Assembly: GCF_020171315.1 (NCBI RefSeq)
Contig: NZ_JAIUZP010000001.1
Span: 186,001 to 250,000 of the forward strand
Direction: 5' to 3'
Source: Pseudooceanicola nanhaiensis
Lineage (GTDB): Bacteria; Pseudomonadota; Alphaproteobacteria; Rhodobacterales; Rhodobacteraceae
DNA: 64,000 nucleotides
In this document: piece after piece, positions 21,231 through 38,794 of the stretch
Layout of the letters: the number at the start of each line of letters is the position of its first letter
Numbering within the stretch: the stretch's first letter is position 1
Made by a program: the position numbers and the translations under genes
The notes under the pieces: generated by a model
Told to the model about the DNA's origin: nothing
What the model saw: only the letters and a program-made list of their open reading frames with translations
Database searches by the model: none

Positions 21231-22121
21231 TCAGGCCGCGGTCTTCACCGGGATCACGTCGACCGAATGGCTGCTCTCCTGCCCGCCGGCCGTGCGCAGA
21301 ACGCCCTTCACCGGGGCCACGTCGGCATAGTCGCGGCCATAGGCCACGGTGATGTGGTCGCGCCCCACGATCAGGTCGTTGGTCGGGTCGAACTCGATCC
21401 AGCCGCCCTCGTGGCCCGTCCAGGCGCGGACCCAGGCGTGCATGGCATCGGCCCCGGCCAGGCGCTCCTGCCCCGGGGGCGGCAGCGTGCGCAGGCAGCC
21501 CGAGACATAGCCCGCCGGAATGCCAAGGCTGCGCAGGCAGGCAATCATCACGTGGGTGAAATCCTGACAGACGCCGCGGCGTTGCGCGAAGGCGGTGGCG
21601 GGGGGCGTGTCCACGTCCGTTGCCTCGGCGTCGAAGGTCATGTCGCCATGCAGCGCCTTGCCGAGCGCGAGGACCACCTCCAGCGCCGTGGCGCCGGGCT
21701 TCACATGGTCGCGGGCATAGGCCGCCATCGCGGCATTGGGCGCGACCCGCGGCGAGGGGGCGAGGAAATGGTGCGGCGAGCGCGGCCCGATGTCGTTCAG
21801 CCCCGCCAGTTCGCGGGCGAGGTCCGGCAGGCCGGGCGACAGGTCCATGGGCGCGGCGGCCGTCACCAGCCGCTCGACCCGGGCGCGCAGGTGGATACGG
21901 ATCTCCTGCAGCGGGCTGTGCCAGCTGACCTCGGTCACCGGGTTGCCGAAGAAATCCAGCCGGTCGCGGCGTTCGTCCGGGGCCGGGTCGCAGGTGATGA
22001 CGCCCTGTTGCAGGGTCTGCCGCCCGACCAGCGTCAGGGGCAGCAGGTGCAGCAGGTTGCGCGCCCCGTCGGAGGGCGCGTCGTATTCATATTCAATGCC
22101 AAGTTCGAGATCGTAGAGCAT
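21231..22121 (-). CDS. Transglutaminase-like cysteine peptidase (third gene of the minus-strand operon)
   Basis: Bacterial transglutaminase-fold protein, 296 residues from the ATG at 22121. An N-terminal beta-rich domain (LGIEYEYDAP..., HLLPLT) precedes the papain-like core. The Cys-His-Asp triad is visible: C in RRGVCQDFTHVM, H in AMHAWVRAW and D in IEFDPTND. Such proteins are thought to be peptidases rather than cross-linkers. It begins 11 nt after the fused ATP-grasp/alpha-E gene, so the two form an operon with the DUF2126 gene at 24569. The paralogue at 30741 shares the layout and the VCQD signature. Confidence 0.92.
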   Translation of the reverse strand: MLYDLELGIEYEYDAPSDGARNLLHLLPLTLVGRQTLQQGVITCDPAPDERRDRLDFFGNPVTEVSWHSPLQEIRIHLRARVERLVTAAAPMDLSPGLPDLARELAGLNDIGPRSPHHFLAPSPRVAPNAAMAAYARDHVKPGATALEVVLALGKALHGDMTFDAEATDVDTPPATAFAQRRGVCQDFTHVMIACLRSLGIPAGYVSGCLRTLPPPGQERLAGADAMHAWVRAWTGHEGGWIEFDPTNDLIVGRDHITVAYGRDYADVAPVKGVLRTAGGQESSHSVDVIPVKTAA

Positions 22122-22132
22122 GGCCGTCCCCC

Positions 22133-24565
22133 CTAGCCAAGATAGAGCGAGGCCAGCAGCCCCGCCAGCGACAGCAGCCGCCCGCGCAGAGCTATCAACC
22201 GCTCGCTGTCCCAGTCGACGGCGTCGGTGGTGCGCAGTTCGGTGTCGATCTCCAGCAGGGCGCGGGCCAGCGGCGACAGCCGCGCGGTGCCCTGCACCTG
22301 CGGCAGCGCCTCCTCCAGCCGGCGCATGGCTGCGATCTGGAACAGGACGGAGCGCGGGTTGTCCGGGTCCAGCAGGATCAGGTCCAGCACCGTTTCGCGC
22401 CGCGGATCGTTCCGGTAGCGGCGTCGGTGCGTCATCATGCTGTCGCCCAGTTCGGTCATCAGCTCGGCGCTGCCCTGCGGCGCATCCTCGTCGCAGAGCT
22501 GCGCCAGCAGCATCGTCGTGTGTTCCGACCGTTCCAGCGCCCGGCCGAAGCTGAGGAAGCGCCAGCCGGTGAAGCGATACATGTTCTCGTGCACGAGGCC
22601 AGAGAAGCCCGTGACCCGGCGCAGCAGCTGGCCAAGATCCCGCGAGGCCCCATCCCCGACCCGCGATTTGCCCGAGATCAGGTTGGCGAGGTAGGAGAGC
22701 TCCCGCAGCTCGGTCCAGGCATCGACCGAGAAGCGGTCGCGGACCTGCCCGGCGCAGTAGCGGGCGGAATCGAGTTGCCCGGTCAGCTGCTGCGGCACCC
22801 GTTCGGCGGGGTCGAGGCTCATCAGCTCCAGCAGGCCGTTCAGGGCCTCCAGCCGCGCCGCCTCGGGATCGCCGGTCTCGTCCAGGCGCAGGTGCCAGGC
22901 GCGCAGCATGCGGATCGTGCCCTCGGCCCGCTCCACGTAGCGGCCCAGCCAGAAGAGGTTGTCCGCCGCCCGCGAGGGCAGGATCGAGGCCCGCCCGCGC
23001 AGGGCGGGGCCGCCCGTCTCGATCATCGTGTCCTGCGGCACCTCCTTGTCGGAGACGATCCACACATCGGCGACCGAGCCGCCGCGCTGCATCGCAAGGG
23101 CCGAGGCGTCGTCGCTGCGCCCGATCCGCGCGTAGCCGCCGGGCATGATCTGCCAGCCTGCCGGGGTCCGGGCCGCGAAGACGCGCACCGTCATGGGGCG
23201 CGGTTCCAGCTTGCCGTCATGCCAGACCGGCGTGGTGGAGAGCGTCACCGCCTCCTGTCCCACCAGCGCCTCGCCCATGGCCTCGATCTGCGTGGCAAGG
23301 TCGGTGCCGGGGGGCAGCATCGGGTCGGGCTCGAAGGGCAGCGAGGTGGAGAGGGCGCGGCCCATCATCATCCGGTCGATGTTGGCCTCGACGTGGGCGC
23401 GTTCGTTGGGCTGGCCGCACCACCATGTCGCGATGTTGGGCAGCGCCAGCGGCGCGCCCAGCAGGGCATGGCTGATCCGGGGCAGGAAGGCCATCAGCGC
23501 GCGGCTTTCCAGCACCCCGGCGCCAAGGGCGTTGACCATCGAGAGCGTGCCCTGCCGCAGCGCCGAGACGAGGCCGGGCGTGCCGATGCGCGAACTCTCG
23601 TCAAGCTCCAGCGGATCGGCGAAGTTGGCGTCGAGCCGGCGCCAAAGTACCGAGACAGGCTTGAGCCCGGACACGGTGCGCACCATCACCTGCCCGTCAC
23701 GGACGGTCAGATCCTCGCCCTCCAGCAGCATCATGCCGAGATAACGGGCGATGAACGTGTGTTCGAAATAGGTGTCGTTGCCGGGGCCGGGGGTCAGGAT
23801 CGCGGGGCGCGCCATGTCGCCGGTGAGCCCTGCGGGGGTGATCTGGCCCAGTCCTTCCATCGCATCGCGGAAGGCGCGGAAGAAGGTGGCGACCCGGTGG
23901 ATGTTCGATTTCTGGAACTGTTCGGGGAACATCCGCGTGCTGGCGACGCGGTTTTCCAGCGCGAAGCCTGCACCCGACGGCGCCTGCGCCCGGTCGCCGA
24001 GGACGAACCACGACCCGTCGGGCGAGCGCCCGATCTCGAAGGCGAGGAAATGCAGGTAGCGGCCCGAGACCGGCGGCACACCCACCACGGGGCGCAGCCA
24101 TTCCGGGTTCTGGGCGATCAGCTCGGGTGGGAGGTAGCCCCCGGAAATCAGCGATTGCGACCCGTAGAGATCGGCGACGATCTTTTCCAACAGCTCGGCG
24201 CGCTGGATCAGCCCGGCGCTGATGCCGGCCCATTCGTCCTCGTGCAGCAGGACGGGGACGTGGGACAGCGGCCAGGCGCGTTCGCCCATGTCCTTGTCGG
24301 AATACTGGCGATAGAACACGCCCGCGTCGCGCAGGTACTGGTCGCCCCGGGCAAACCGGGCCTCCAGCGCCTCTTCGTCGAGGGAGCCGACCTGCCGCAG
24401 CAGCCAGCGCCATGCCGGGCGCATGTTGCCCTCGGCATCCAGCAGTTCGTCGGCCACGCCGGGGCGTGTCTTGTAGCGTGCCAGAAGCGCCTTTTCAGGC
24501 GCTTCCGAGGGTTTGGCCGGTTTGCCGTCTCCGGCGGGCTGGCCTTGGGATTGGCCCTGCGACAT
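22133..24565 (-). CDS. Fused circularly permuted ATP-grasp and alpha-E domain protein
   Basis: An 810-residue fusion of a circularly permuted ATP-grasp (DUF404/DUF407, about 60-490) and an alpha-helical alpha-E (DUF403) domain (about 495-810; starts LPSRAADNLFWLGRYVERAEG, repeats FGRALERSEHTTML). The same two domains are separate proteins at 28357 and 29790. ATP-grasp members form amide bonds with ATP, and the pair is predicted to make or attach peptides. The ATP-grasp half keeps the APSGAGFALENR region and VLTPGPGNDTYFEHTFIA, but where the split paralogue has EVHGSGGYGM this one has a diverged stretch (NIDRMMMGRAL), so ATP-binding may be impaired. ATG at 24565 starts 3 nt after the upstream stop. 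Confidence 0.9.
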   Translation of the reverse strand: MSQGQSQGQPAGDGKPAKPSEAPEKALLARYKTRPGVADELLDAEGNMRPAWRWLLRQVGSLDEEALEARFARGDQYLRDAGVFYRQYSDKDMGERAWPLSHVPVLLHEDEWAGISAGLIQRAELLEKIVADLYGSQSLISGGYLPPELIAQNPEWLRPVVGVPPVSGRYLHFLAFEIGRSPDGSWFVLGDRAQAPSGAGFALENRVASTRMFPEQFQKSNIHRVATFFRAFRDAMEGLGQITPAGLTGDMARPAILTPGPGNDTYFEHTFIARYLGMMLLEGEDLTVRDGQVMVRTVSGLKPVSVLWRRLDANFADPLELDESSRIGTPGLVSALRQGTLSMVNALGAGVLESRALMAFLPRISHALLGAPLALPNIATWWCGQPNERAHVEANIDRMMMGRALSTSLPFEPDPMLPPGTDLATQIEAMGEALVGQEAVTLSTTPVWHDGKLEPRPMTVRVFAARTPAGWQIMPGGYARIGRSDDASALAMQRGGSVADVWIVSDKEVPQDTMIETGGPALRGRASILPSRAADNLFWLGRYVERAEGTIRMLRAWHLRLDETGDPEAARLEALNGLLELMSLDPAERVPQQLTGQLDSARYCAGQVRDRFSVDAWTELRELSYLANLISGKSRVGDGASRDLGQLLRRVTGFSGLVHENMYRFTGWRFLSFGRALERSEHTTMLLAQLCDEDAPQGSAELMTELGDSMMTHRRRYRNDPRRETVLDLILLDPDNPRSVLFQIAAMRRLEEALPQVQGTARLSPLARALLEIDTELRTTDAVDWDSERLIALRGRLLSLAGLLASLYLG

Positions 24566-24568
24566 GGG

Positions 24569-27500
24569 TCAGACTCCGGGGGACCGCCGCAGGTCCAGCG
24601 TGTGCGGGAACTCGGGGTGCGTGCTTTCCGACGGTGGCTGGTACGAACCGGGCGTATGCCCCTTGGCCTCGAACCGGGCAAGGCGGCGGGCCTCGGCCTC
24701 GTTACCGTTCACCGGGAAGGTGTCGTAGTTGCGTCCGCCGGGATGTGCAACGTGATAGGTGCAGCCACCGATCGCCCGGCCGGTCCATGTGTCATAGATG
24801 TCGAAATGCAGCGGTGCGTTCACCGGCAGCACCGGGTGCAGCGCCTCGGGCGGTTGCCATGCCTTGTAGCGCACGCCGCCCACGAAGGTGCCCGAGGTCT
24901 CGGTCCCTGCCAGCGGCACCATGCGACCGTTGCAGGTGACGGCATAGCGCCCGGGGTTCTTGGTGGACAGCTGCACCTGCAGCCGCTCGACCGAGCTGTC
25001 GGTATAGCGCACCGTGCCGCCGATGGCGCCGGTTTCGCCCAGCACGTGCCACGGCTCCAGAGCCTGCCGCAGTTCCAGCGTGCAGCCCTCGTAGGTGACC
25101 TCGCCGCAGAACGGGAAGCGGAACTCCTTCTGGGCGATGAACCATTCCTCCTCGACCGGGTAGCCGTGATCCTCGAGGTCGCGCAGCACGTCGCGGAAAT
25201 CCTCCCAGACGAAATGCGGCAGCATGAACCGGTCGTGCAGCACCGTGCCCCAGCGGACCGGTTTGCCCTTGATGGGGGAATGCCACATCCGGGCGATGAT
25301 CGCGCGGATCAGCACCTGCTGGGCGAGGCTCATCTTGGCATCGGGCGGCATCTCGAAGCCGCGGAACTCCACGAGGCCCAGACGACCCGTGGGCCCGTCG
25401 GGGGAATAGAGCTTGTCGATGCAGATCTCGGCCCGGTGGGTGTTGCCGGTGACATCGGTCATCATGTTGCGCAGCAGCCGGTCCACCAGCCACGGCATCG
25501 GCTTGGGGTAATCCTCGCCGGGATCGGGGATCTGCGACAGGGCGATCTCCAACTCGTAGAGCGTGTCGAGCCGGGCCTCGTCGATCCGGGGCGCCTGCGA
25601 GGTCGGGCCGATGAAGAGGCCGGAGAAGAGGTAGGACAGCGAGGGATGCCGCTGCCAGTAGAGGATCAGCGAGCGCAGCAGGTCGGGGCGGCGCAGGAAG
25701 GGGCTGTCGTTGGGCGTGGCCCCGCCCACGACGACGTGGTTGCCGCCGCCGGTGCCGGTGTGGCGCCCGTCGATCATGAACTTGTCGGCGCCAAGGCGGG
25801 TCTGCCGGGCCTCCTCGTAGATCGCCATGGTGGTGTCCACGCAGTCCTGCCAGGTGTCGGCGGGGTGGATGTTCACCTCGATCACGCCGGGATCGGGGGC
25901 GACGCGGATCACGTTGATCCGGCTGTCATGGGGCGGCGCATAGCCTTCGATATGCACCTTGAGCTCCAGCTTGCCCGCGGCTGCTTCGACGGCGGCCAGC
26001 AGGTCGAGGTAATCCTCGACGTCCTCGGTCGGGGGCAGGAAGACCGACAGCTTGCCATTGCGCGGCTCGACCGAGATCGCGGTGCGCACGGCGCCGCCCA
26101 GTTCGGCGGTCTGTTCCACGATGGTCTGCCCCACCGGCGTGGCGGTGAACGAGGCCGTGGCCTGATGCGCCCGCGCGGCATCCGCATCCTCGGGCAGGTC
26201 GTAATCGGGCAGCGGCGGTTTCACCTCGGTCGGGTCCGAGGGGTAGATATAGGGATAGGCCGAGGGCTTGACGTAGGACAGCGATCCCAGCGGCAGGCGA
26301 TAGCCCACGGGGCTGTCACCGGGCACGAGGAAGATGCGCCCACGGCGCAGCGACCAGCGTTCGGTCTGCCACTTGCGCCCCGACGCGCGGCCCTGCCAGG
26401 CCTGCACCGGCAGCACATAGCCCGACGGTGTGGTCAGGCCCCGTTCGAACACCTTGGCCATGCGGTGGCGTTCCTCGGGGTCCTTCAGCTTGTTGTTCTC
26501 GGGCGTGACGTTGTCGGGCAGCTGCGCCTCTTTCAGCAGCCATTCGCCTGGATCCTCCCAGGCGGGTTCCACGAACTCGGGGCCGAGTTCCAGCTGGTTG
26601 GCGACCTCTTGCAGAAGCGCCTGCGCGTTCTCGGGCGTGGCGTGGTCGTAGGTCTCGTCCTCGCGCGCGATCAGGTCGGCGTTGCGCCAGATCGGCTTGC
26701 CGTCCTTGCGCCAGAAGAGGCTGAAGGTCCAGCGCGGCAGGGTCTCGCCCGGATACCACTTGCCCTGACCGTAATGCAGGAAGCCGCCCGGGGCGAACTT
26801 CAGCCGCAGCTTGCGGATCAGCTCATCCGCAAGGCCGCGTTTCATCGGGCCCACGGCGGCGGTGTTCCACTCGGCGCTCTCAAAGTCGTCGATCGAGACG
26901 AAGGTCGGCTCGCCCCCCATCGTCAGGCGGACATCGCCTTCGGCCAGCTTCTCGTCCACCTTCTTGCCGAGCGCGTTCAGACGCTCCCACGAGGCATCGG
27001 AGAAGGGCTTGGTGATCCGCGGATGTTCGGACACCCGGTCGACCTTCATGTCGAACTGGAAATCCACCTCGGCATAGGAGGCCATGCCCGCGATCGGCGC
27101 GGCAGAGCGGTAGTGCGGCGTGGCGGCCAGCGGGATGTGGCTCTCGCCGGTCAGCAGGCCCGAGGTCGGATCAAGGCCGATCCAGCCCGCGCCGGGGATA
27201 TAGACCTCGACCCATGCGTGCAGGTCGGTGAAGTCGTGATCCGTGCCCGAGGGCCCGTCGAGCGATTTCAGATCGGGCTTCAGCTGGATCAGGTAGCCCG
27301 AGACGAAGCGCGCGGCGAAGCCGAGGTTGCGCAGCACCTGCACCAGCAGCCACGAGCTGTCGCGGCAGGAGCCCGACACCCGTTGCAGCGTTTCGTCCGG
27401 GGTCTGCACCCCGGGTTCCATCCGGATCGTGTAATCGACGTGGTTCGAGACGTAGGCGTTGAGCCCGACGAGGAAGTCGATGGTCCGGTCCTGATCGCGC

Positions 27501-27904
27501 GGGATGCCCTCCATGAACTTCGCCAAGAGCGGCGTCATCGGTTCGGGCGTGGAATAGATCGACAGGTCGTTGCCCAGCTCAAGCGGGGCGGGGAAGGGCC
27601 ATGTCTCGGCGCTTTCCTCCACGAAGAAGTCGAAGGGGTTGTAGACCGACATGTCGGCCACGAGGTCGACCTCGATCTTGAATTCGCGCACCGGCTCCGG
27701 GAAGACGAAGCGCGCCATCCAGTTGCCGTAAGGGTCCTGCTGATGGTTCACGAAATGCCCGCCGGGGCTGACCTTCAGCGAATGGCTGATGACCCGGGTC
27801 CGGGAATGCGGCGCCGGGCGCAGACGGATGATCTGCGGGCCGAGCGTCACCGGACGGTCGTACTTGTAATGGGTCAGGTGGTAGATCGCGGCGTTGATCG
27901 ACAT
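24569..27904 (-). CDS. Transglutaminase / DUF2126 two-domain protein
   Basis: A 1111-residue protein. The first ~290 residues are a transglutaminase-like domain with its own N-terminal beta domain and an intact triad (C in [10 protein letters not shown] in LHAWVEVY, D in GLDPTSG). The remaining ~800 residues are DUF2126 (from about [14 protein letters not shown]), proposed from comparative genomics to be a glutamine-synthetase-fold amide ligase; conserved stretches include [17 protein letters not shown] and [14 protein letters not shown]. The frame is open upstream to 28153, but the ATG at 27904 ([18 protein letters not shown]) gives the family start. First gene of the minus-strand operon, divergent from 28357. 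Confidence 0.92.
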
Positions 27905-28356
27905 GGAGCGTGTCACCCTGAGTTGCTGCGCAGTGCGTTCCATCACATCCGGGAGCGGCCCTGTCAGGCAAGGACGGATGTACGCATCCCAAAGGGATAG
28001 GGGATGTCGGGGCGAAAAAACAGGCTCTTGCGCGGAGAGGGCGACGACAGGCCGGGGCAGGCCGCGACCTCTACGGTGGAAGGGCGCGCCAGCGGCGCGG
28101 AACCGCTTGATTCGGGCCGGTTCCCCGCCAAGGGTGACGCAGGGTTTGCGCAAATTCCCGGCAGCTGCCTATGATGGAGGCGGAAATTCCCGCTGCGCCG
28201 CGTGGTCAGAATCGCGCATCCCGCGGAAAGCTGGAACTGTCGGGCCTGCGGCGTTGCGCCCTGATGTCCCGACGGGTCCTGCACTGGACCAGCCTGTATG
28301 CAGGCGGTATGGATCAGGACCGCGCAACGCTCGGATGAAGGGAGAACGAGGGTGGC
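27905..28356. promoter_or_regulatory. Divergent control region between the two ATP-grasp/transglutaminase operons (452 bp)
   Basis: No gene with acceptable start is visible. Features: a direct repeat AAATTCCCG at about 28151-28159 and 28184-28192 (33 bp apart), and a 5-bp inverted repeat GGTCC / GGACC at about 28276-28290. A shared regulator of both operons could bind here, but no known operator was recognised. Confidence 0.35.
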
Positions 28357-29784
28357 ATGACGGACAGTAAGTTCTTTGACGAAATGATGAATCCAGGCGG
28401 GGATGCCCGTCCGCCCTATTCCAATTACGCAGACTGGTTTTCCGGCGAGGACCCCAAGAGCCTTCTGAAGAAGTCGGCCGAGGCGGAAGCCTTCTTCCGC
28501 CGCATCGGGATCACCTTCAACGTCTACGGCCAGTCCGAGGCGGATGAACGGCTGATCCCCTTCGACATCGTGCCGCGGATCATCTCGGCCAGCGAATGGC
28601 GCCAGTTGGAGCGCGGGATCGAGCAGCGGGTGCGCGCGATCAACGCCTTCCTCGCGGACATCTATCACCGGCAGGAAATCCTGAAGGCCGGGCGTATCCC
28701 GCCCGAGATCATCAGCGGAAACGAAGCCTACCTGCCGCAGATGGTGGGCGTCACGCCGCCGGGCGGCGTCTATACCCATATCGTCGGCACCGACCTCGTG
28801 CGCACCGGCGAGAATGAATTCTACGTTCTGGAAGACAACGCGCGTACGCCCTCCGGCGTCTCTTACATGCTGGAGAACCGCGAGACGATGCTGTCGATGT
28901 TCCCGGAGCTCTTCACCCAGATGAAGGTGCGGCCGGTTTCGTCCTATCCGGCCGAACTGCGCCGCTCGCTGAGCGAGAGCGCGCCGCCGAACTTCTCGGG
29001 CAGCAAGCCGACGCTGGCGGTGCTGACGCCGGGCATCCACAACTCGGCCTATTTCGAGCACAGCTTCCTCGCCGACCAGATGGGCGCGGAACTGGTGGAG
29101 GCCAGCGATCTGCGCATCGTGGATGGCCGGGTCAACATGCGCACGATCCGGGGCTACAAGCCGATCGACGTGATCTATCGCCGCGTCGACGATGCCTACC
29201 TCGATCCGCTGACCTTCAACCCGGAAAGCATGCTGGGCGTGCCGGGCATCATGGATGTCTATCGCGCGGGCAACATCACCATTGCCAATGCGCCGGGCAC
29301 CGGCATCGCGGACGACAAGGCGCTCTACAGCTACATGCCGGATATCGTCGAGTTCTACACCGGCGAGAAGGCGATCCTGCAGAACGTGCCGACGTGGCGC
29401 TGCTCGGAGCCCGACAGCCTGGCCTACGTGCTCGATCACCTTGCCGAACTGGTGGTGAAGGAAGTGCACGGCTCGGGCGGCTACGGCATGCTCGTCGGGC
29501 CCGCCGCCTCCAAGAAGGAGCTGGCAGAGTTCGAGGCCAAGCTGCGCGCCAAGCCCAAGAACTACATCGCCCAGCCGACGCTGGCGCTCTCGACCGTGCC
29601 GATCATGACCAAGGCGGGGCTTGCGCCGCGCCACGTCGACCTGCGGCCCTTCGTCCTCGTCTCGCCCAAGAAGATCCACATCACGGCGGGCGGGCTGACG
29701 CGGGTGGCGCTGAAGGAAGGCTCGCTCGTTGTGAACTCGTCGCAGGGCGGCGGGACCAAAGACACCTGGGTTCTGGGGGACTGA
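28357..29784 (+). CDS. Circularly permuted type 2 ATP-grasp protein
   Basis: A 475-residue stand-alone ATP-grasp (DUF404/DUF407) with an apparently complete active site: VLEDNARTPSGVSYMLENR, YRRVDDAYLDP, the glycine-rich nucleotide loop VVKEVHGSGGYGMLVG, HVDLRPFVL and the C-terminal GGLTRVALKEGSLVVNSSQG. ATP-grasp enzymes join a carboxylate to an amine through an acyl phosphate; here the substrates are unknown and are predicted to be peptides or amino acids. First gene of the plus-strand operon ATP-grasp, alpha-E, transglutaminase, Anbu; the next start is 5 bp after its stop. Confidence 0.92.
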   Translation: MTDSKFFDEMMNPGGDARPPYSNYADWFSGEDPKSLLKKSAEAEAFFRRIGITFNVYGQSEADERLIPFDIVPRIISASEWRQLERGIEQRVRAINAFLADIYHRQEILKAGRIPPEIISGNEAYLPQMVGVTPPGGVYTHIVGTDLVRTGENEFYVLEDNARTPSGVSYMLENRETMLSMFPELFTQMKVRPVSSYPAELRRSLSESAPPNFSGSKPTLAVLTPGIHNSAYFEHSFLADQMGAELVEASDLRIVDGRVNMRTIRGYKPIDVIYRRVDDAYLDPLTFNPESMLGVPGIMDVYRAGNITIANAPGTGIADDKALYSYMPDIVEFYTGEKAILQNVPTWRCSEPDSLAYVLDHLAELVVKEVHGSGGYGMLVGPAASKKELAEFEAKLRAKPKNYIAQPTLALSTVPIMTKAGLAPRHVDLRPFVLVSPKKIHITAGGLTRVALKEGSLVVNSSQGGGTKDTWVLGD

Positions 29785-29789
29785 TCGGA

Positions 29790-30737
29790 ATGGCAATGCT
29801 GGGAAGAACCGCCGGGGGCCTGTTCTGGATGTTCCGCTACCTCGAGCGGAGCGAGAACACCGCCCGCCTGCTGGAAACCGGGTTCCGGATCGCGCTGACC
29901 TCGTCCAACGAGGCCGAGACGGAATGGGAGAGCATCGTGACCACCGCCGGTGTGCGCGAGCTCTACCTCGAGAAATACGACACCTTCGAGCAGGGGCATG
30001 TGATCAACTTCCTCCTGCGGGACAAGGACAACCCCTCCTCGGTCATGAACTCGATCGAGATGGCGCGCCAGAACGCGCGGATGGTGCGCACCGCGCTCTC
30101 CGCCGAGGTCTGGGAAGCCACGAACGAGACCTGGATGACAATGAAGACCGCGCTGGCCCGTCCGGTCTCGGTGAAGAACCTCGCCGAGGTTCTGACCTCG
30201 GTGCGGCAGCATTCGGCGGTGGTGCGCGGCGCCCTGCACGGCACCATGCTGCGCAACGAGATCTTCGATTTCGCCCGGATCGGCACGTTCCTTGAACGGG
30301 CCGACAACACCGCGCGCATTCTGGATGTGAAGTATTACATCCTGCTGCCCTCCTCGGCCTTCGTCGGCTCCTCAATGGACAACAACCAGTGGGAGACGAT
30401 CCTGCGGTCGGTGTCGGCACTGCGGTCCTTCCGCTGGCTGAACGAGGAGGAGACCTCCGCCATGGGGATCGCCAAGTTCCTGATCCTCGACAAGCGGATG
30501 CCGCGCTCGCTGGCGTTCTGCGCCTCCAAGCTGGCGGGTAACCTTGCCTACCTCCAGCGCGATCACGACGGGCCGCTGCCCTGCGTCGAGATGGCCGCAC
30601 AGGTGAACGCCGAACTGGCCGCGCTGACCGTGGATCAGATCTTCGACGATGGGTTGCACGAATTCCTCGAAGGCAGCATCGTAAGGATCGCTGAGATCGC
30701 ATCGCAGATTCAGCAGGATTTTCGGTTTTACGGGTGA
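29790..30737 (+). CDS. Alpha-E domain (DUF403) protein
   Basis: A 315-residue all-helical protein of the alpha-E family, whose genes nearly always accompany permuted ATP-grasp genes. The first helix carries GLFWMFRYLERSENTARLLE and the family motif recurs as IGTFLERADNTARILD near residue 165. It probably acts as a partner of the ATP-grasp enzyme; no catalytic residues are known. ATG at 29790 (GGA precedes). Tightly packed with its neighbours (5 bp upstream, 3 bp downstream), so expression is surely coupled. Confidence 0.92.
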   Translation: MAMLGRTAGGLFWMFRYLERSENTARLLETGFRIALTSSNEAETEWESIVTTAGVRELYLEKYDTFEQGHVINFLLRDKDNPSSVMNSIEMARQNARMVRTALSAEVWEATNETWMTMKTALARPVSVKNLAEVLTSVRQHSAVVRGALHGTMLRNEIFDFARIGTFLERADNTARILDVKYYILLPSSAFVGSSMDNNQWETILRSVSALRSFRWLNEEETSAMGIAKFLILDKRMPRSLAFCASKLAGNLAYLQRDHDGPLPCVEMAAQVNAELAALTVDQIFDDGLHEFLEGSIVRIAEIASQIQQDFRFYG

Positions 30738-30740
30738 CCC

Positions 30741-31544
30741 ATGCGGTTGAAGATCACGCATACGACCAGCTACTCCTATGACCAGCCGTTGCATTACGCG
30801 CTGCTCCAACTGCGGCTGACGCCGCGCGACGGGCACGGGCAACGGGTCTACAGCTGGTCGTCCCACGTCAGCGGGGCCACGCCGCAGGTGTCCTTCACCG
30901 ACCATTTCCGCAATCATGTGGACCTCGTCCTGATGGACAAGGAGGCCCAGAAGGTCGAGATCACCTGCACCGGCGAAGTGGAAACCGAGGATCGCAACGG
31001 CGTGCTGGGACAGGACAAGGGCCACGCGCCGCTGTGGCTCTTCCAGCAGAAGACCCCTGTCACGACCCCGGGCACGGCGGTCCGCAAGCTGGTGAAGGGG
31101 CTGGAAGGCGACGTCGCCAGCGACGCGCTGGGCGCGATGCACAAGCTCTCGGGCCTGATCGGCGAGGCGGTTGCCTACGAGAAGGGCGTGACCACGGCCA
31201 CCACCACCGCCGAAGAGGCGCTGGCGGGGGGCAAGGGCGTCTGTCAGGACCATGCGCACATCATGATCGCATCGGCCCGGCACCTGGGCCTGCCCGCGCG
31301 CTACGTTTCGGGCTACCTGATGATGCAGGGCACGGATCAGCAGGAGGCCGCACACGGCTGGGCCGAGGTGCACGTGGGCCCGCTGGGCTGGGTCGGCTTC
31401 GACGTCTCCAACGAGATCTGCCCCGATGAACGCTATGTCCGCGTCGCCGTGGGCCGCGACTATGGCGAGGCCGCCCCTGTGCACGGGCTGCGGCACGGCT
31501 CTGCGAAGGAAGAGCTTTACGTTTCGTTGCAAGTACAGCAATAG
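30741..31544 (+). CDS. Transglutaminase-like cysteine peptidase of the Anbu operon
   Basis: A 267-residue transglutaminase-fold protein with N-terminal beta domain (ITHTTSYSYDQPLHYALLQL) and the Cys-His-Asp triad: C in GKGVCQDHAHIM, H in AHGWAEVH and D in WVGFDVSNE. It is the third gene of the operon and directly precedes Anbu, an order seen widely for this module. Likely a peptidase or amide hydrolase acting on the product of the ATP-grasp/alpha-E pair (inference from context). Confidence 0.92.
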   Translation: MRLKITHTTSYSYDQPLHYALLQLRLTPRDGHGQRVYSWSSHVSGATPQVSFTDHFRNHVDLVLMDKEAQKVEITCTGEVETEDRNGVLGQDKGHAPLWLFQQKTPVTTPGTAVRKLVKGLEGDVASDALGAMHKLSGLIGEAVAYEKGVTTATTTAEEALAGGKGVCQDHAHIMIASARHLGLPARYVSGYLMMQGTDQQEAAHGWAEVHVGPLGWVGFDVSNEICPDERYVRVAVGRDYGEAAPVHGLRHGSAKEELYVSLQVQQ

Positions 31545-31574
31545 GATCCGGTTCTCTTCCTCGGAGTCGCCCCT

Positions 31575-32315
31575 ATGACCTACTGCGTGGGTATCCAGCT
31601 TGACCGTGGCATGGTCTTCATGTCCGACACCCGGACCAATTCGGGCGTCGATAACATTTCGACCTTCCGCAAGATGCACACCTTCGAGGTGCCGGGCGAA
31701 CGCTCCATCACCATGATGACGGCGGGCAACCTTGCCACCACGCAGGCCGTGGTCAGCCTGCTGCAGGAGCGCACCAAGACGGTCGAGAACCGCGAGCCCG
31801 AGATCCTGCGCCTCGAGTCGATGTTCCAGGTTGCGCAGCTTGTCGGCTCCACCCTGAAGGAAGTGATCGCGACCCACGCGGACGTGGGCCAGAAGGCCGA
31901 TGCGACCTTCAACGCGACGATCATCCTCGGCGGTCAGATCAAGGGCGGCGCGCCGCGGCTCTTCCTGATCTACCCGGAGGGCAACTTCATCGAGGCCGGT
32001 GCCGACACGCCCTTCTTCCAGATCGGCGAGACGAAGTATGGCCGCCCGATCCTGATCCGGGCCTATGATCCCGCGATGACCTTCGAAGAGGCGATGAAGC
32101 TGCTGCTCGTCTCCTTCGACAGCACCATCAAGGCGAACCTCTCTGTCGCGCTGCCGCTGGATTACCACATCTACCCGGTCGACAGCTGTGCCACGGGCAC
32201 CCTCGGCCGCATCAAGGTGGATGACAGCTACTTCGAGACGATCTCGAACGGCTGGGGCGTCGCCCTGCGCGATGCCTTCGGCGCGCTGCCGGACTTCGAA
32301 CTGCCCGATAGCTGA
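31575..32315 (+). CDS. Anbu, bacterial proteasome-type (ancestral beta subunit) protease
   Basis: A 246-residue Ntn-hydrolase-fold protein related to the proteasome beta subunit and HslV. Removal of the initiator Met exposes Thr1 (TYCVGIQLDRGMVFMSD); numbered from it, D17 and K32 occupy the catalytic D17/K33-like positions of the proteasome. The rest of the fold is visible in ATFNATIILGGQ and SVALPLDYHIYPVDS. Such proteins are reported to form self-compartmentalised rings; no ATPase partner is encoded beside it. Last gene of the operon, 30 bp after the transglutaminase. Its stop lies in a 14-bp tandem repeat. Confidence 0.93.
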   Translation: MTYCVGIQLDRGMVFMSDTRTNSGVDNISTFRKMHTFEVPGERSITMMTAGNLATTQAVVSLLQERTKTVENREPEILRLESMFQVAQLVGSTLKEVIATHADVGQKADATFNATIILGGQIKGGAPRLFLIYPEGNFIEAGADTPFFQIGETKYGRPILIRAYDPAMTFEEAMKLLLVSFDSTIKANLSVALPLDYHIYPVDSCATGTLGRIKVDDSYFETISNGWGVALRDAFGALPDFELPDS

Positions 32316-32389
32316 GGCCGAAGAGCTAAGGCCCGAGAGCTGAGGCTGAAGAGCTGAAGCCCCGGGGCTAAGGCTCTGGGGCTAGAGCC
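32310..32389. repeat. 14-bp tandem repeat array spanning two convergent stop codons
   Basis: About 5.7 copies of a 14-bp unit, consensus close to AGCTGAGGCCGAAG: 32310-32323, 32324-32337, 32338-32351, 32352-32365, 32366-32379 and a partial unit to 32389. The first unit contains the anbu stop and the last holds the stop of the convergent GNAT gene. Copies drift toward a G/C-richer variant (GGCTAAGGCTCTGG). Confidence 0.85.
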
Positions 32390-33275: not shown

Positions 33276-34556
33276 ATGTCGAAATTTCTCAAGACGATGC
33301 TCGGGGCCGCTGCCGGCTCCCTCCTGCTGAGCACCGCCGCTTTCGCACAGGACACCATCAAGGTCGGCGTCCTGCATTCGCTCTCGGGCACCATGGCGAT
33401 CTCGGAAACCACCCTGAAGGACACCATGCTGATGCTCATCGACGAGCAGAACGCAAAGGGCGGCGTGCTGGGCAAGCAGCTCGAAGCCGTCGTGGTGGAC
33501 CCGGCCTCCGATTGGCCGCTCTTCGCCGAAAAGGCACGCGAGCTGATGACCGTCTCCAACGTGGACGTGATGTTCGGCTGCTGGACCTCGGTGTCGCGGA
33601 AATCCGTGCTGCCGGTGATCGAGGAACTGAACGGCCTGCTGTTCTACCCGGTCCAGTACGAGGGTGAAGAATCCTCCAAGAACGTCTTCTACACCGGCGC
33701 CGCTCCGAACCAGCAGGCGATCCCGGCCACCGATTACTTCCTCGACGAACTCGGCGTCGAGAAGTTCGCGCTGCTCGGCACCGACTACGTCTATCCGCGC
33801 ACCACGAACAACATCCTCGAGTCCTACCTCGAGTCGAAGGGCATCGCGAAGGAAGACATCTTCGTGAACTACACCCCCTTCGGTCACTCCGACTGGTCCA
33901 AGATCGTGTCGGACGTCGTGGCGCTTGGCGCGGACGGCAAGAAGGTCGGCGTGATCTCCACCATCAACGGTGACGCGAACATCGGCTTCTACAAGGAACT
34001 CGCGGCGCAGGGCATCTCCGCAGACGACATCCCCGTCGTGGCCTTCTCGGTCGGTGAAGAAGAACTCTCCGGCCTCGATACCTCGAACCTCGTGGGTCAC
34101 CTCGCGGCATGGAACTACTTCCAGTCCGCCGACACCCCCGAGAACGCCGCTTTCGTCGAGCAGTGGAAAGCCTACGCCGGCGCAGACCGCGTGACCAACG
34201 ACCCGATGGAAGCCCACTACATCGGCTTCAACATGTGGGTGCAGGCGGTCGAAGCATCGGGCACCACCGATGTTGACACGGTCATCGACGCGATGGTCGG
34301 CCAGACCTTCCCGAACCTGACCGGCGGCACCGCCGAGATGCTCCCGAACCACCACCTCACCAAGCCGGTGCTGATCGGCGAGATCCTCGAGGATGGCCAG
34401 TTCGACATCATCTCCGAAACCGATCCCGTCCCCGGCGACGCCTGGACCGACTTCCTGCCGGAATCGGCCAAGCTGAAGTCCGACTGGCCGGGCCTCGGCT
34501 GCGGTATGTACAACACCGAGACCGAAAGCTGCGTCCAGCTCCAGTCCAACTACTGA
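33276..34556 (+). CDS. urtA: Urea ABC transporter substrate-binding protein
   Basis: Periplasmic urea/short-chain-amide binding protein. The 426 residues start with a Sec signal (SKFLKTMLGAAAGSLLLSTAAFAQ) and enter the type I branched-chain amino-acid-binding fold at DTIKVGVLHSLSGTMAISE. Features typical of UrtA include CWTSVSRKSVLPVIEE and YEGEESSKNVFYTGAAPNQQ. First of a complete urtABCDE set; urease genes are outside the window. A strong hairpin follows the gene, probably letting UrtA accumulate above the membrane components. Confidence 0.96.
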   Translation: MSKFLKTMLGAAAGSLLLSTAAFAQDTIKVGVLHSLSGTMAISETTLKDTMLMLIDEQNAKGGVLGKQLEAVVVDPASDWPLFAEKARELMTVSNVDVMFGCWTSVSRKSVLPVIEELNGLLFYPVQYEGEESSKNVFYTGAAPNQQAIPATDYFLDELGVEKFALLGTDYVYPRTTNNILESYLESKGIAKEDIFVNYTPFGHSDWSKIVSDVVALGADGKKVGVISTINGDANIGFYKELAAQGISADDIPVVAFSVGEEELSGLDTSNLVGHLAAWNYFQSADTPENAAFVEQWKAYAGADRVTNDPMEAHYIGFNMWVQAVEASGTTDVDTVIDAMVGQTFPNLTGGTAEMLPNHHLTKPVLIGEILEDGQFDIISETDPVPGDAWTDFLPESAKLKSDWPGLGCGMYNTETESCVQLQSNY

Positions 34557-34580
34557 TCCGCGTTTCACGCTGATCACGCG

Positions 34581-34608
34581 GCCCGGGCGGTGCATCCGTC
34601 GCCCGGGC
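34581..34608 (+). terminator. Intercistronic hairpin between urtA and urtB
   Basis: Perfect 9-bp stem GCCCGGGCG / CGCCCGGGC with a 10-nt loop, 24 nt after the urtA stop and without a T tract. It is followed by a tetranucleotide run (ACTG repeated about four times, 34617-34632). Probably an mRNA-stabilising or attenuating element that favours urtA. Confidence 0.6.
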
Positions 34609-34681
34609 CCTGACTAACTGACTGACTGACTGCCGCTCCGCGTGCCGTTCCGCCCGGCGCGTCGCGCCCCGAAAGGATCAA

Positions 34682-36652
34682 GTGGGTCTGATGCCGCGTA
34701 GACTTCTTTCGGCACTGTTGTGCCTGATTTCCCTCCTCGCCACGCCGCTCGCCGCTCAGGAAGGCCCGCTGCAGGACCTGCTGCAGAGCCAGCGCGCGCT
34801 GATCGAGGATTCCTCCCGCCGCACCATTGGCCCGGCCATCGACGCGATCCGCGACAGCGGGCTCGACGGCGCCGCCCTCGTGCTGGAGAAATGGGAGGCC
34901 CGCGAGATGTGGCAGCGCGAAAGCGATGGCCTCTTCTTCTACGCAGAGGAAGTGAACCGCGACACGCTGCACCTTTACGCGTTCGACGGCCCCACCGATC
35001 TGGGCGAAGTCCCCGACGAGGGCTTCGACCAGCTCAAGCCGAACTCCGGCATCCGGGGGCTGATCGCCTCGGCGCTGGTGCAGTTCCAGCTTTCCGATCC
35101 CGATATTTCCCGCCGCCGCGCCGCGCTCGACGCGCTGGCCCGCGACGGCAACGCCGATCACCTGCCGGTGCTGCGCGCCGCGATCGAGAACGAGCCCGAC
35201 GCCGCCATCCGCGCCCAGAAGGAGCGCCTCGAACGGCTGCTGACCATCCGCTTCGGTGCCACGGACGCGGCCCGGATCGAGGCGATCGCCTATTTCCGCG
35301 GTGACCTCGCCGTCGACGTGCGCGCCGCGCTGAACCCGATCCTCGCCACCCGGCGCGAGGTGGTCGCGGGCGAGCCGCCCGCCGGCGCGAACATCGCAGC
35401 CGAGCTGACCCCGGGCAGCGAGACATTCCCGGCCGAGGAGGCCTATGGTCTGCTCGTCTCCGCGGGCCTCGCCCCCGCGCGCCTCACCGCCGACGCCCAG
35501 CGTCAGGCGCTGGCCGCCAATATCGTCGAGGGCCGCGTGGGCGGCGTGCCGGTGGCCGAGCTCTCCGATCCGGCCGCCCGGGACCGCGCCTATGACGCGC
35601 TGGAGGCCGCGGGCACCGTCCCCGCCGCCGCCACCCAATCCGAGGTCGAGGCCGCGCTTGCGGCGCACAGCTTCTTCGACCGCTATGTCGAGCCCTCCGC
35701 CGCCGTTACAGATGCGGCCGAAGAGGCGCTGAACTCCATCGAGCTGAAGCTGGCGGTGAACCAGTTCATCGACCTCGCGCTCGACGCGCTCTCGCTCGCC
35801 TCGATCTACTTCCTGGCCGCCATCGGCCTTGCCATCACCTTCGGCGTCATGGGCGTGATCAACATGGCCCACGGCGAGTTCATCATGATGGGCGCCTATA
35901 CCGGCTACGTGCTGCAACAGCTGATCCCGAACTACACCGTCTCGATCCTCGTCGCGATCCCGGTCGCCTTCGCGGTGACCTTCGCCGCCGGCGTGGCGAT
36001 GGAGCGTCTCGTGATCCGCTGGCTCTACTCGCGCCCGCTGGAAACCCTGCTCGCCACCTTCGGCATCTCCATCGCGCTGCAGCAGCTGGCCAAGAACATC
36101 TTCGGCACCCAGGCCCGCCCGCTGACCTCGCCGGGCTGGCTCGACGGGCAACTTGTGATCAACGACATCATCGGGATCTCGTGGATCCGGGTGGCGATCT
36201 TCGTCCTCGCCCTCGTGTTCCTCGCCATCTACCTCTTCATCATGCAGCGCACCCGCCTCGGGCTCGAAACCCGCGCGGTGACCCAGAACCCCCGCATGGC
36301 GGCCTCCATGGGCATCAACCCCGACCGGGTGAACATGCTGACCTTCGGCCTCGGCTCCGGCATCGCGGGCATCGCGGGCGTGGCCATCGGGCTCTTCGCC
36401 CAGGTCACCTCCGAGCTTGGCCAGGGCTACATCGTCCAAAGCTTCATGACCGTGGTCGTGGGCGGCGTCGGCAATGTCTGGGGCACGCTGGCGGGCGCCA
36501 CGATGATCGGCTTCCTGCAGAAGGGGATCGAATGGCTGAACCCGTCGAACACGCTGGCGGCCCAGACCTACATGATCATCTTCATCATCATCTTCATCCA
36601 GTTCCGCCCCCGCGGCATCATCGCCCTCAAGGGCCGCGCGGCAGGAGATTGA
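34682..36652 (+). CDS. urtB: Urea ABC transporter permease UrtB with a large N-terminal domain
   Basis: Inner-membrane permease of the LivH type, 656 residues. A signal-like N-terminus (PRRLLSALLCLISLLATPLAAQ) is followed by ~300 residues of soluble helical-repeat (HEAT-like) sequence, including DPDISRRRAALDALARDGNA. The membrane part begins near residue 355; the family motif GVMGVINMAHGEFIMMG and GLGSGIAGIAGVAIGLFAQ are present. The GTG start at 34682 is preferred over the ATG at 34691 because AAAGGA lies at the proper distance from GTG. Co-transcribed with urtC, separated by 172 bp containing a repeat. Confidence 0.94.
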   Translation: MGLMPRRLLSALLCLISLLATPLAAQEGPLQDLLQSQRALIEDSSRRTIGPAIDAIRDSGLDGAALVLEKWEAREMWQRESDGLFFYAEEVNRDTLHLYAFDGPTDLGEVPDEGFDQLKPNSGIRGLIASALVQFQLSDPDISRRRAALDALARDGNADHLPVLRAAIENEPDAAIRAQKERLERLLTIRFGATDAARIEAIAYFRGDLAVDVRAALNPILATRREVVAGEPPAGANIAAELTPGSETFPAEEAYGLLVSAGLAPARLTADAQRQALAANIVEGRVGGVPVAELSDPAARDRAYDALEAAGTVPAAATQSEVEAALAAHSFFDRYVEPSAAVTDAAEEALNSIELKLAVNQFIDLALDALSLASIYFLAAIGLAITFGVMGVINMAHGEFIMMGAYTGYVLQQLIPNYTVSILVAIPVAFAVTFAAGVAMERLVIRWLYSRPLETLLATFGISIALQQLAKNIFGTQARPLTSPGWLDGQLVINDIIGISWIRVAIFVLALVFLAIYLFIMQRTRLGLETRAVTQNPRMAASMGINPDRVNMLTFGLGSGIAGIAGVAIGLFAQVTSELGQGYIVQSFMTVVVGGVGNVWGTLAGATMIGFLQKGIEWLNPSNTLAAQTYMIIFIIIFIQFRPRGIIALKGRAAGD

Positions 36653-36693
36653 GCATGACCAACGTCTCGTCGCCCACAGGGTCCCTCCGGTTT

Positions 36694-36761
36694 CCGTTTC
36701 TCAAATATCCCGGGGGGCGACGCGCCCCGCGCGTCGGGGGGCTGGCCCCCCATCCCCGCCC
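36694..36761. repeat. Dispersed intergenic repeat inside the urt operon, copy 2
   Basis: Between urtB and urtC: CGTTTCTCAAATATCCCGG followed by a G/C-rich segment with a hairpin GGGGGGC / GCCCCCC (about 36743-36758). The core TCAAATATCC and the G/C-rich tail match the copies at 2152 and 39496. Confidence 0.6.
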
Positions 36762-36824
36762 GCCGCAGGCGCAAGACCCGAGGGCGTCGATGATGCCCCA
36801 GACCCACGCCCCGAGGACCCGGCC

Positions 36825-38054
36825 ATGAAAAACAGCTTCATCGCCCGCAACCCGTCGATCCTGATCTTCCTTGCCTGCCTTGCGGTCTTCACGCTGGTGA
36901 TCACCCTGATGTCCCATGCCTATGGCACGGGCGGGATCTCCACCTCCTTCGTCAAGACGCTGGGCCGCACGCTCTGCCTCTGCCTCGTGGCCATCGCGAT
37001 GGATCTCGTCTGGGGCTACTGCGGCATCCTCAGCCTCGGCCATTTCGCCTTCTTCGGGCTCGGCGGTTACATGGTGGGCATGTGGCTGATGTACGCCCGG
37101 ACTGAGATCATCGTGATCGAGAGCCTCGCCAATTCCCCGATCCCGCCCACGGCGCAGGAGGTGCAGGACGCCATCGGCACGCAGATCTTCGGCGTCGTTG
37201 GCTCCTCCGAGTTCCCGCTTATCTGGTCCTTCGCCCATTCGCTCACGCTGCAACTCCTGCTGGTCGTGCTGATCCCGGGCGTCCTCGCCCTCGTCTTCGG
37301 CTGGCTCGCCTTCCGCTCGCGGGTGACGGGCGTCTACCTCTCGATCCTGACCCAGGCCATGACGCTCGCGCTCTCGCTCTACCTCTTCCAGAACGAAAGC
37401 GGGCTGCGCGGCAACAACGGCCTCTCGGGTCTGCAGAACCTCCCCGGGGTCACCGCCGGGCAGGATGCGATCTCGGTCTGGTTCCTCTGGGCCTCCGCGC
37501 TCGCCCTCGGGCTCGGCTACCTGCTCGCCGCCTGGGTGGTCTCGGGCAAGTTCGGCTCCGTGGTGCGCGGCATCCGTGACGACGAGGCGCGGGTGCGCTT
37601 CCTCGGCTACTCGGTGGAAACCTACAAGCTCTTCATCTTCACCCTGACCGCCATCATCGCGGCCGTGGCGGGCGCGCTCTACTACCCGCAGGCCGGTATC
37701 ATCAACCCGGGCGAGATCGCCCCGATCGCCTCGATCTACCTCGCGGTCTGGGTGGCAATCGGTGGCCGGGGGCGCCTCTACGGCGCCGTCATCGGGGCCG
37801 CCGTCGTCTCCCTCGTCTCCACCTGGTTCACCGGCGGCATGGTGCCTGCGCTGAACCTCGGCTTCTACCGGATCGACTGGGTCGACTGGTGGCTCGTGCT
37901 CCTCGGCCTCTCCTTCGTGCTTGTGACGCTCTTCGCGCCCAAGGGCATCGGCGGCCTCTTCGACCTCGTCGGGGCCCGCATGGCGCCGAACCGCCACGGC
38001 GCCGACTACGGCCCCGGCAAGGGTTCCCTGCGCGAGAAGGAGGGACAGGAATGA
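36825..38054 (+). CDS. urtC: Urea ABC transporter permease UrtC
   Basis: Second permease (LivM type), 409 residues with about ten membrane segments. The signature DLVWGYCGILSLGHFAFFGLGGY near residues 58-80 and RVTGVYLSILTQAMTLAL are characteristic of UrtC. Pairs with UrtB to form the urea channel. The stop overlaps the urtD start by 4 nt (ATGA). The cytoplasmic tail is short and ends SLREKEGQE. Confidence 0.95.
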   Translation: MKNSFIARNPSILIFLACLAVFTLVITLMSHAYGTGGISTSFVKTLGRTLCLCLVAIAMDLVWGYCGILSLGHFAFFGLGGYMVGMWLMYARTEIIVIESLANSPIPPTAQEVQDAIGTQIFGVVGSSEFPLIWSFAHSLTLQLLLVVLIPGVLALVFGWLAFRSRVTGVYLSILTQAMTLALSLYLFQNESGLRGNNGLSGLQNLPGVTAGQDAISVWFLWASALALGLGYLLAAWVVSGKFGSVVRGIRDDEARVRFLGYSVETYKLFIFTLTAIIAAVAGALYYPQAGIINPGEIAPIASIYLAVWVAIGGRGRLYGAVIGAAVVSLVSTWFTGGMVPALNLGFYRIDWVDWWLVLLGLSFVLVTLFAPKGIGGLFDLVGARMAPNRHGADYGPGKGSLREKEGQE

Positions 38055-38791
38055 GCACGCTTCTCGAGGTCTCCGGCGTCTCCGTCACCTTCGACGGCTT
38101 CCGCGCCATCAACAACCTCTCCTTCCAGATCGGCGAGGCGGAGCTGCGCGCCATCATCGGTCCGAACGGGGCGGGCAAGACCACCTTCATGGACATCGTC
38201 ACCGGCAAGACGCGCCCTGACGAGGGCCGGGTGATCTGGGGCGAGAAATCCGTGAACCTGCTCAAGATGAACGAGGCCAAGATTGCCCAGGCGGGCATCG
38301 GGCGGAAGTTCCAGCGCCCCACGGTCTTCGAGGACCAGAGCGTCTACGACAACCTCCTGATGGCGGTGAAGAACGCCCGTGGCCCGCTGCCGGTGCTCTT
38401 CTACAAGCCCACCTTCAAGGACCGCGGCAAGGTCGAGGAACTGGCCTCCGAGATCGGCCTCGCGGACGAGCTTTCGCGCAAGTCGGGAGAGCTCTCCCAC
38501 GGCCAGAAGCAATGGCTCGAGATCGGCATGCTGCTGGCGCAGGAACCGCGCCTGCTGCTGGTCGATGAACCCGCCGCCGGCATGACGCTGGCCGAACGCG
38601 AACATACCACCGACCTGCTGGTCGAGGCCGCCAAGACCCGCGCGGTCGTGGTGGTGGAACATGACATGGAATTCGTCCGCCGGCTGAACTGCAAGGTGAC
38701 GGTCCTGCACGAGGGCTCGGTCCTGGCCGAGGGTTCGCTGGATCACGTCACTGCGAACCAGCAGGTGATCGATGTCTACCTGGGGCGCTGA
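38051..38791 (+). CDS. urtD: Urea ABC transporter ATP-binding protein UrtD
   Basis: ATPase of 246 residues (LivG type). Walker A GPNGAGKTT, signature LSHGQKQWLEIG and Walker B LLLVDEPAAGM are intact; the C-terminus VLAEGSLDHVTANQQVIDVYLGR is typical of LivG/UrtD. ATG at 38051 overlaps the urtC stop; the gene is followed after 3 bp by urtE. Confidence 0.96.
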   Translation: MSTLLEVSGVSVTFDGFRAINNLSFQIGEAELRAIIGPNGAGKTTFMDIVTGKTRPDEGRVIWGEKSVNLLKMNEAKIAQAGIGRKFQRPTVFEDQSVYDNLLMAVKNARGPLPVLFYKPTFKDRGKVEELASEIGLADELSRKSGELSHGQKQWLEIGMLLAQEPRLLLVDEPAAGMTLAEREHTTDLLVEAAKTRAVVVVEHDMEFVRRLNCKVTVLHEGSVLAEGSLDHVTANQQVIDVYLGR

Positions 38792-38794
38792 GAC

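Follow-up and report, generated by a model that had tools for sequence, protein, structure and literature searches.

The window, i.e., the whole stretch of 64,000 nucleotides analysed here (Pseudooceanicola nanhaiensis, contig NZ_JAIUZP010000001.1, positions 186,001 to 250,000), contains seven genes organised in two divergent operons (Table 1). The preliminary description of this DNA had proposed this layout, with a start region common to both operons, and the ORF and Pfam analyses confirm it: the seven genes have the coordinates, spacings and domains that were claimed, and the 452 bp from which both operons start are present. Genes are tightly packed, with gaps of 5, 3 and 30 bp along the plus operon, and of 3 bp (TG-DUF2126 to the ATP-grasp/alpha-E fusion) and 11 bp (fusion to transglutaminase) in the minus operon, which TamA and TamB flank on its far side. 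The urea transporter operon urtABCDE lies downstream of Anbu. Since a minus-strand gene encoding a GNAT acetyltransferase (32382-32972) sits between Anbu and urtA, these two do not belong to one transcript here. A relative of the GNAT gene is also present at the corresponding locus of one congener (G583, locus L170). The ORF list of the window is such that a precursor gene of less than 100 aa would escape it.

Table 1. Features of the two divergent operons and of their neighbourhood (positions in the window).
Feature	Position	Strand	Evidence
Minus-operon stand-alone transglutaminase-like protein	21231..22121	-	Transglut_core 4e-19; Bact_transglu_N 7e-15
ATP-grasp/alpha-E fusion, ATP-grasp circularly permuted, predicted pseudoenzyme	22133..24565	-	PF14403 1.5e-126; PF04168 9e-52
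TG-DUF2126 (putative amidoligase by Pfam name)	24569..27904	-	ATG at 27904; PF09899 1334.6 bits; Transglut_core 2e-17
452-bp divergent intergenic region	27905..28356	.	between both first genes
Stand-alone circularly permuted ATP-grasp, predicted active site intact	28357..29784	+	PF14403 (CP_ATPgrasp_2) 8e-167
Alpha-E protein, all-helical, two ER motifs	29790..30737	+	PF04168 1e-90
Plus-operon transglutaminase-like protein	30741..31544	+	Transglut_core 2e-19
Anbu, proteasome-like Ntn hydrolase	31575..32315	+	Pfam Proteasome 9e-12; PDB relatives
urtABCDE, urea ABC transporter operon	33276..39490	+	TIGR03407, 03409, 03408, 03411, 03410, each above cut-off

The plus set (ATP-grasp, alpha-E, transglutaminase and Anbu) is the published Anbu operon (Valas and Bourne 2008; Iyer et al. 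2009, as described in excerpts of PMC6376114 and PMC5666114), with which it shares the four genes, their order and the candidate residues Thr1, Asp17 and Lys32. Unlike the published operon, that of the window is accompanied by the divergent DUF2126 operon and by urtABCDE. The order of the four genes is identical in 78 of 80 Anbu loci of named genomes, the ATP-grasp gene of the other two being missing at a contig end. Furthermore, an ATP-grasp gene was found within 8 kb of at least 60 of the 82 strong Anbu places of the class sample (289 alphaproteobacterial genomes), among the matches listed. The closest solved relatives of the window's Anbu are Anbu entries, not HslV or 20S: five PDB sequences match it (E 4e-87 to 1e-63), named Anbu or Peptidase by their depositors (5loy, 5nyw, 5nyj, 5nyf and 5lox), and 5LOX is an Anbu according to an excerpt of PMC8665760. 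The residues given as catalytic candidates in the available part of PMC6376114, i.e., Thr1, Asp17 and Lys32(33), are invariant across 16 aligned rows (mature numbering, Lys32), and T2, D18 and K33 are kept in at least 97% of 94 rows. The same part reports that purified Anbu from Y. bercovieri cleaved none of the proteasome substrates tested and did not bind specifically to its operon partners, and that the ATP-grasp partner released phosphate from ATP. Eighteen genomes of the class sample (e.g., G041, G146 and G227) carry only a weak relative of Anbu (E 1e-29 to 1e-38). Among the matches listed, none of these 18 lies within 8 kb of an ATP-grasp gene, and they possibly belong to another proteasome-like family.

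The two ATP-grasps of the locus differ in their predicted active sites. The stand-alone protein is a full-length homologue of PDB 3n6x (E 2.6e-188) and keeps the residues expected for ATP-dependent carboxylate activation. Among 92 rows of this type, E159, N161, R163 and K368 are invariant or nearly so (at least 97%), as is the Gly-rich loop GSGGYG (at least 97%). By analogy to glutathionylspermidine synthetase, we take E159, N161, K368 and the Gly-rich loop to be metal and ATP ligands. In contrast, these conserved residues have been lost from the fused paralogue, in which Gly190 and Arg192 stand in place of the predicted metal ligands in the window. E159, N161 and K368 are present in none of 33 fused rows (a set in which the window's own gene appears twice). 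The position of E159 is occupied by Gly (26 rows), Ser (2), Ala (2), Thr (1), Gln (1) or a gap (1), that of N161 by Arg (31), Leu (1) or a gap (1), and that of K368 by Gly (25), Ser (7) or Ala (1). In the same way, six further fused records, spread over Alpha-, Beta- and Gammaproteobacteria and Acidobacteriota, all lack the Glu, replaced by Ala, Ser or Gly, and the Asn, replaced by Arg or His; the Lys survives in three of them (Enterobacter, Azospirillum and Granulicella). Because both predicted metal ligands are lost in 33/33 rows and in 6/6 further records, the fused ATP-grasp is probably a pseudoenzyme.

The transglutaminases keep a Cys-His-Asp triad, found in 87/87 plus-type rows (Cys168, His205 and Asp221), 5/5 minus-type rows and 44/44 rows of the domain fused to DUF2126. 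The dense set of amide-forming and amide-cleaving enzymes predicted by the preliminary description is thus backed by the catalytic residues kept in Anbu, in the stand-alone ATP-grasp and in the transglutaminases, but the idea that every ligase is active fails for the fused ATP-grasp. The ATP-grasp and Anbu sites, whose death in most homologues would have spoken against the system, have kept their residues in Anbu and in the stand-alone ATP-grasp.

The role of DUF2126 as an amide-forming enzyme is putative, being based on the Pfam name: the domain matches PF09899 far above the cut-off of 27 bits. A PDB profile search with TG-DUF2126 gave a match to its TG part only. Comparison of the DUF2126 core with Amidoligase_2 and GCS2 by hhalign gave probabilities of at most 0.6% and 0.2%, respectively, and the control comparison of Amidoligase_2 with GCS2 likewise failed (0.1%). 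A gene of the Amidoligase_2 family is carried by the same genome outside the window (G000:C1:148548-149309), roughly 65 kb away from the gene of the stand-alone ATP-grasp, and such a gene was found in 22 of 60 genomes searched. The fold of alpha-E gave no function, since the AlphaFold2 model (mean pLDDT 88.7) matched no PDB structure with an E under 0.001 (0.15 at best) and the best match of the profile search had an E of only 0.65. The protein carries two ER motifs, LERSENTAR and LERADNTAR, at about residues 14-30 and 164-180, which look like an internal duplication. The alpha-E half of the fusion protein likewise has both of its ER motifs, visible in the translation of the window.

The two operons are associated in their distribution. 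In the class sample, 44 genomes have DUF2126, 93 have Anbu and 33 have both, which corresponds to an odds ratio of 9.25 when shared ancestry is ignored. A stricter count, which drops the 18 genomes with weak matches only and retains 75 genomes with a strong Anbu, still finds both in 27 of the 44 DUF2126 genomes (odds ratio 6.5). The family sample (295 genomes) gives a very similar picture, with 90 genomes carrying DUF2126, 206 carrying Anbu and 84 carrying both (odds ratio 9.5, shared ancestry ignored). Most genomes with both operons keep them apart: only three of the 33 class genomes have them within 20 kb, all three in divergent orientation. In eight, a long distance on one contig separates them, and in 22 they occupy different contigs. 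Distances in the family sample were counted among the matches listed, i.e., 150 Anbu and 150 UrtA places, which leaves out 56 of the 206 Anbu genomes. Among these matches, Anbu and DUF2126 lie within 5 kb of each other in 8 of 54 genomes (7 of 53 without the window), against 0.13 expected under uniform placement and with shared ancestry ignored; seven of these linked loci are divergent and one is colinear. Comparison of neighbourhoods, which had been suggested to reveal whether the operons are related, therefore gives a mixed answer, their distributions being linked and their physical linkage recurrent, whereas 30 of 33 class genomes do not have them within 20 kb.

The genus of the window illustrates both sides. 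All 22 genomes carry the two operons, but the divergent pair is found in only six of them (the window, G583, G584, G587, G595 and G597); 15 are without it, and G581 cannot be assigned as its contig measures 3.2 kb. In five genomes without the pair (G579, G582, G588, G590 and G592), TamA is the next identified gene beside the ATP-grasp gene, a place that is occupied by the minus operon in the window. The flanks of the minus operon, between TamA and the ATP-grasp gene, were too diverged to reveal an insertion scar.

On the Anbu tree, a quick tree in which 34 of 92 inner branches are open, the adjacency of Anbu and DUF2126 changed at least five times; the table of groups, which leaves out the rows in no group, holds four changes, three of which are forced by well-supported branches. 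As the loci L115 to L134 were chosen mostly for linkage, this tree informs on events and not on frequency, and the compact loci mentioned below are a picked set. One locus (L123, genome G312) carries the seven genes all on one strand. In eight compact loci (L115-L119, L122, L132 and L133), DUF2126 is divergent from ATP-grasp, alpha-E and Anbu, and a separate transglutaminase is absent, whereas the three sister Anbu loci that DUF2126 does not adjoin (L125-L127) all have one. This suggests that TG-DUF2126, through its transglutaminase domain, can stand in for the separate gene, although the window has both. Taken with the co-occurrence, the divergent pair in separate lineages and the colinear set of L123 indicate that the two operons probably form one functional module.

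The minus operon is found with its genes in the same order (TG-DUF2126, ATP-grasp/alpha-E and transglutaminase) in records from Shinella, Azospirillum, Granulicella, Caballeronia, Enterobacter and Burkholderia. In the last three, unlike in the window, a stand-alone ATP-grasp and an alpha-E gene precede the TG-DUF2126 operon on the same strand, and Anbu is absent from the stretch read. The operon family and the domain combination are already known, and the divergent pair recurs. The name DUF2126 matched nothing in the literature searched and no two of six family names stood together in a paper there; the pairing of the operons may be in print. Three further points did not appear in this literature, available in part: that the fused ATP-grasp is probably dead, that the transglutaminase seems exchangeable and that urea transport genes repeatedly adjoin.

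The preliminary description made no mention of a nitrogen context, which comes from the adjoining urea transporter and from published induction under nitrogen limitation. Among the matches listed for the family sample, 5 of 87 genomes have UrtA no more than 15 kb from Anbu (0.62 expected, Poisson P 0.0005), or 4 of 86 without the window (P 0.004). For UrtA and DUF2126, the same distance limit gives 3 of 58 genomes (0.41 expected), or 2 of 57 without the window (P 0.06), again among the matches listed; these expectations also assume uniform placement and ignore shared ancestry. Genes urt are found in the flanks of 7 of the 80 named Anbu loci and, in the genus of the window, urtA is downstream of Anbu in 14 of 22 genomes and is not within the stretch read in seven, the stretch of the remaining one ending early. 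These two counts overlap by shared genomes (e.g., L005/L175, L009/L181, L011/L187 and L024/L182). On the Anbu tree, urt linkage changed at least five times (four in the table of groups, three of them forced). Its arrangements vary: the urt genes either share the strand, downstream or upstream, or are divergent from either the ATP-grasp gene or DUF2126. In L016, one of the seven named loci, urtE ends about 142 bp ahead of the ATP-grasp gene.

Other nitrogen genes are found beside relatives of these operons. In Acidithiobacillus caldus, a cluster of Anbu, DUF2126, ATP-grasp and alpha-E genes adjoins amt, P-II, glnA and ntrBC, and the orphan Anbu of Azospirillum argentinense adjoins genes of a dihydropyrimidinase, an amidase and an amidohydrolase. 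The Acidithiobacillus locus (L137), on a megaplasmid, comprises two Anbu genes and two perfect sigma-54-like sites, and its DUF2126 matches fall into two pieces separated by 1.4 kb. No recognisable nitrogen gene adjoins the operon in the plasmid loci of Limimaricola and Paracoccus. In marine metagenomes, DUF403, DUF404, DUF407 and Bact_transglu_N correlate with urea domains, according to an excerpt of PMC3597751.

Published expression data, which come from gamma- and betaproteobacteria, point to the same context. In excerpts of PMC7801951, PP_2686-2688 of P. putida are induced 11- to 37-fold by nitrogen limitation and assigned to NtrB/NtrC along with urtABCD, while the Anbu gene PP_2685 changes 1.12-fold in the wild type, 4.81-fold in a relA/spoT mutant and 1.45-fold in an rpoN mutant. 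The induction of PP_2686-2688 persists in the rpoN mutant (14- to 20-fold), which disfavours a strict dependence on sigma-54. Comparison of nitrate with ammonium gave log2 values of 4.44 for PP_2685 and 3.99 for PP_2688 (PMC8050072, in part), and PP2685, PP2686 and PP2687 were 6.6- to 11.1-fold up under nitrogen limitation compared with carbon limitation (PMC3325844, in part). In B. cenocepacia, the cluster I35_5080-83, which encodes two transglutaminase-like proteins, one of them large, is NtrC- and sigma-54-dependent, with log2 values of -9.4 and -6.0 in the ntrC mutant (PMC5491218, in part). We take the large protein to be TG-DUF2126, as suggested by the order of the genes in a different strain. 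The main text of a nitrate study of Paracoccus denitrificans, as available in PMC5424462, names urt and no transglutaminase or proteasome gene.

In the window itself, joint regulation of the two operons has no sequence support, since the 452 bp contain no sigma-70-consensus promoter-like or terminator-like site and the region has no Rfam match at gathering score. When these 452 bp were aligned by eye with those of five congeners, G583 alone matched the window, the other four not. Using consensus patterns, no NtrC- or sigma-54-like site was found in the 452 bp, and the regions upstream of 94 ATP-grasp genes showed no enrichment in NtrC patterns (23 and 24 against 20.8 and 20.2 expected) or in sigma-54 patterns (2 and 4 against 2.2 and 2.2 expected).

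The best explanation overall, to which we give a probability of about 0.5, is that the locus is a nitrogen-starvation module in two halves, by which a dedicated amide-linked substrate would be assembled and cleaved. A role under nitrogen limitation is the likely part of this reading; the chemical steps are tentative and could well be otherwise. Under nitrogen shortage, DUF2126 and the ATP-grasp, the latter partnered by alpha-E, would couple amino groups to carboxylates, the acceptor being a dedicated peptide or a small carrier. The transglutaminase-like enzymes would then shift or cut a side-chain amide, and Anbu would hydrolyse the product, so that amino acids or ammonia could be reused alongside urea import. 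The fused ATP-grasp/alpha-E protein would act as a non-catalytic partner of TG-DUF2126. Pup-proteasome recycling similarly relies on an amide ligase and a proteasome-like hydrolase and is used in nitrogen starvation by starved mycobacteria. The module of the window resembles it by this pair of activities and by its proposed use in nitrogen starvation but differs from it by the lack of an adjoining unfoldase among the proteins scanned.

Another possibility is that DUF2126 and ATP-grasp add a peptide tag to proteins, which Anbu degrades and whose amino acids are recycled, in the manner of the Pup-proteasome. The proteasome-like protease adjoining ligases, the invariance of its catalytic residues in 16 rows and the induction by nitrogen limitation (excerpts of PMC7801951 and PMC8050072) would all fit. 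We nevertheless consider tagging unlikely: a scan of 20 window proteins, which left five without any match, revealed no AAA+ unfoldase, and the Anbu of Y. bercovieri, Hyphomicrobium and P. aeruginosa had no peptidase activity on the substrates tried, as stated in an excerpt of PMC6376114. About equally doubtful is a pathway producing a bioactive or secreted peptide, in which Anbu would serve as a processing or self-protection hydrolase. A heterologous clone with ATP-grasp, alpha-E, transglutaminase and protease genes from an Ulva metagenomic library does appear among the antinematode sources in a review table (PMC7764037, in part), but there is no exporter among the seven genes, the distribution of Anbu, which covers 206 of the 295 genomes of the family, is unusually wide for a secondary metabolite and induction by nitrogen limitation rather suggests core metabolism.

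It is still less probable that the operons are two separate paralogous systems, adjoining by chance or through a common neighbourhood of nitrogen genes. The 30 class genomes in which they are not together and the 15 congeners without the pair (one more being undecidable) would be expected in this case, whereas the repeated linkage, the seven genes on a single strand in L123 and the compact loci without a separate transglutaminase argue for one system. A more specific and rather improbable scheme is a starvation-induced amide conjugation and release, in which TG-DUF2126, on a pseudo-ATP-grasp/alpha-E scaffold, would attach a nitrogen-rich carrier or tag and Anbu would be the dedicated release hydrolase. 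If true, it would explain the inactivity of Anbu on ordinary proteasome substrates and would represent a second, independent proteasome-related route of nitrogen recycling in bacteria.

Structures of Anbu have been solved while its function and substrate are not known, according to excerpts of PMC6376114 and PMC8665760. Tying Anbu to DUF2126 and to nitrogen limitation narrows the search for this function. That the fused ATP-grasp has lost its predicted metal ligands also indicates which enzyme of each operon deserves testing first.

Copies of DUF2126 were not found in the viral contigs scanned. Two records filed under phages (MT835738.1 and CAKLQH020000004.1) carry a full-length circularly permuted ATP-grasp and may be bacterial contamination.
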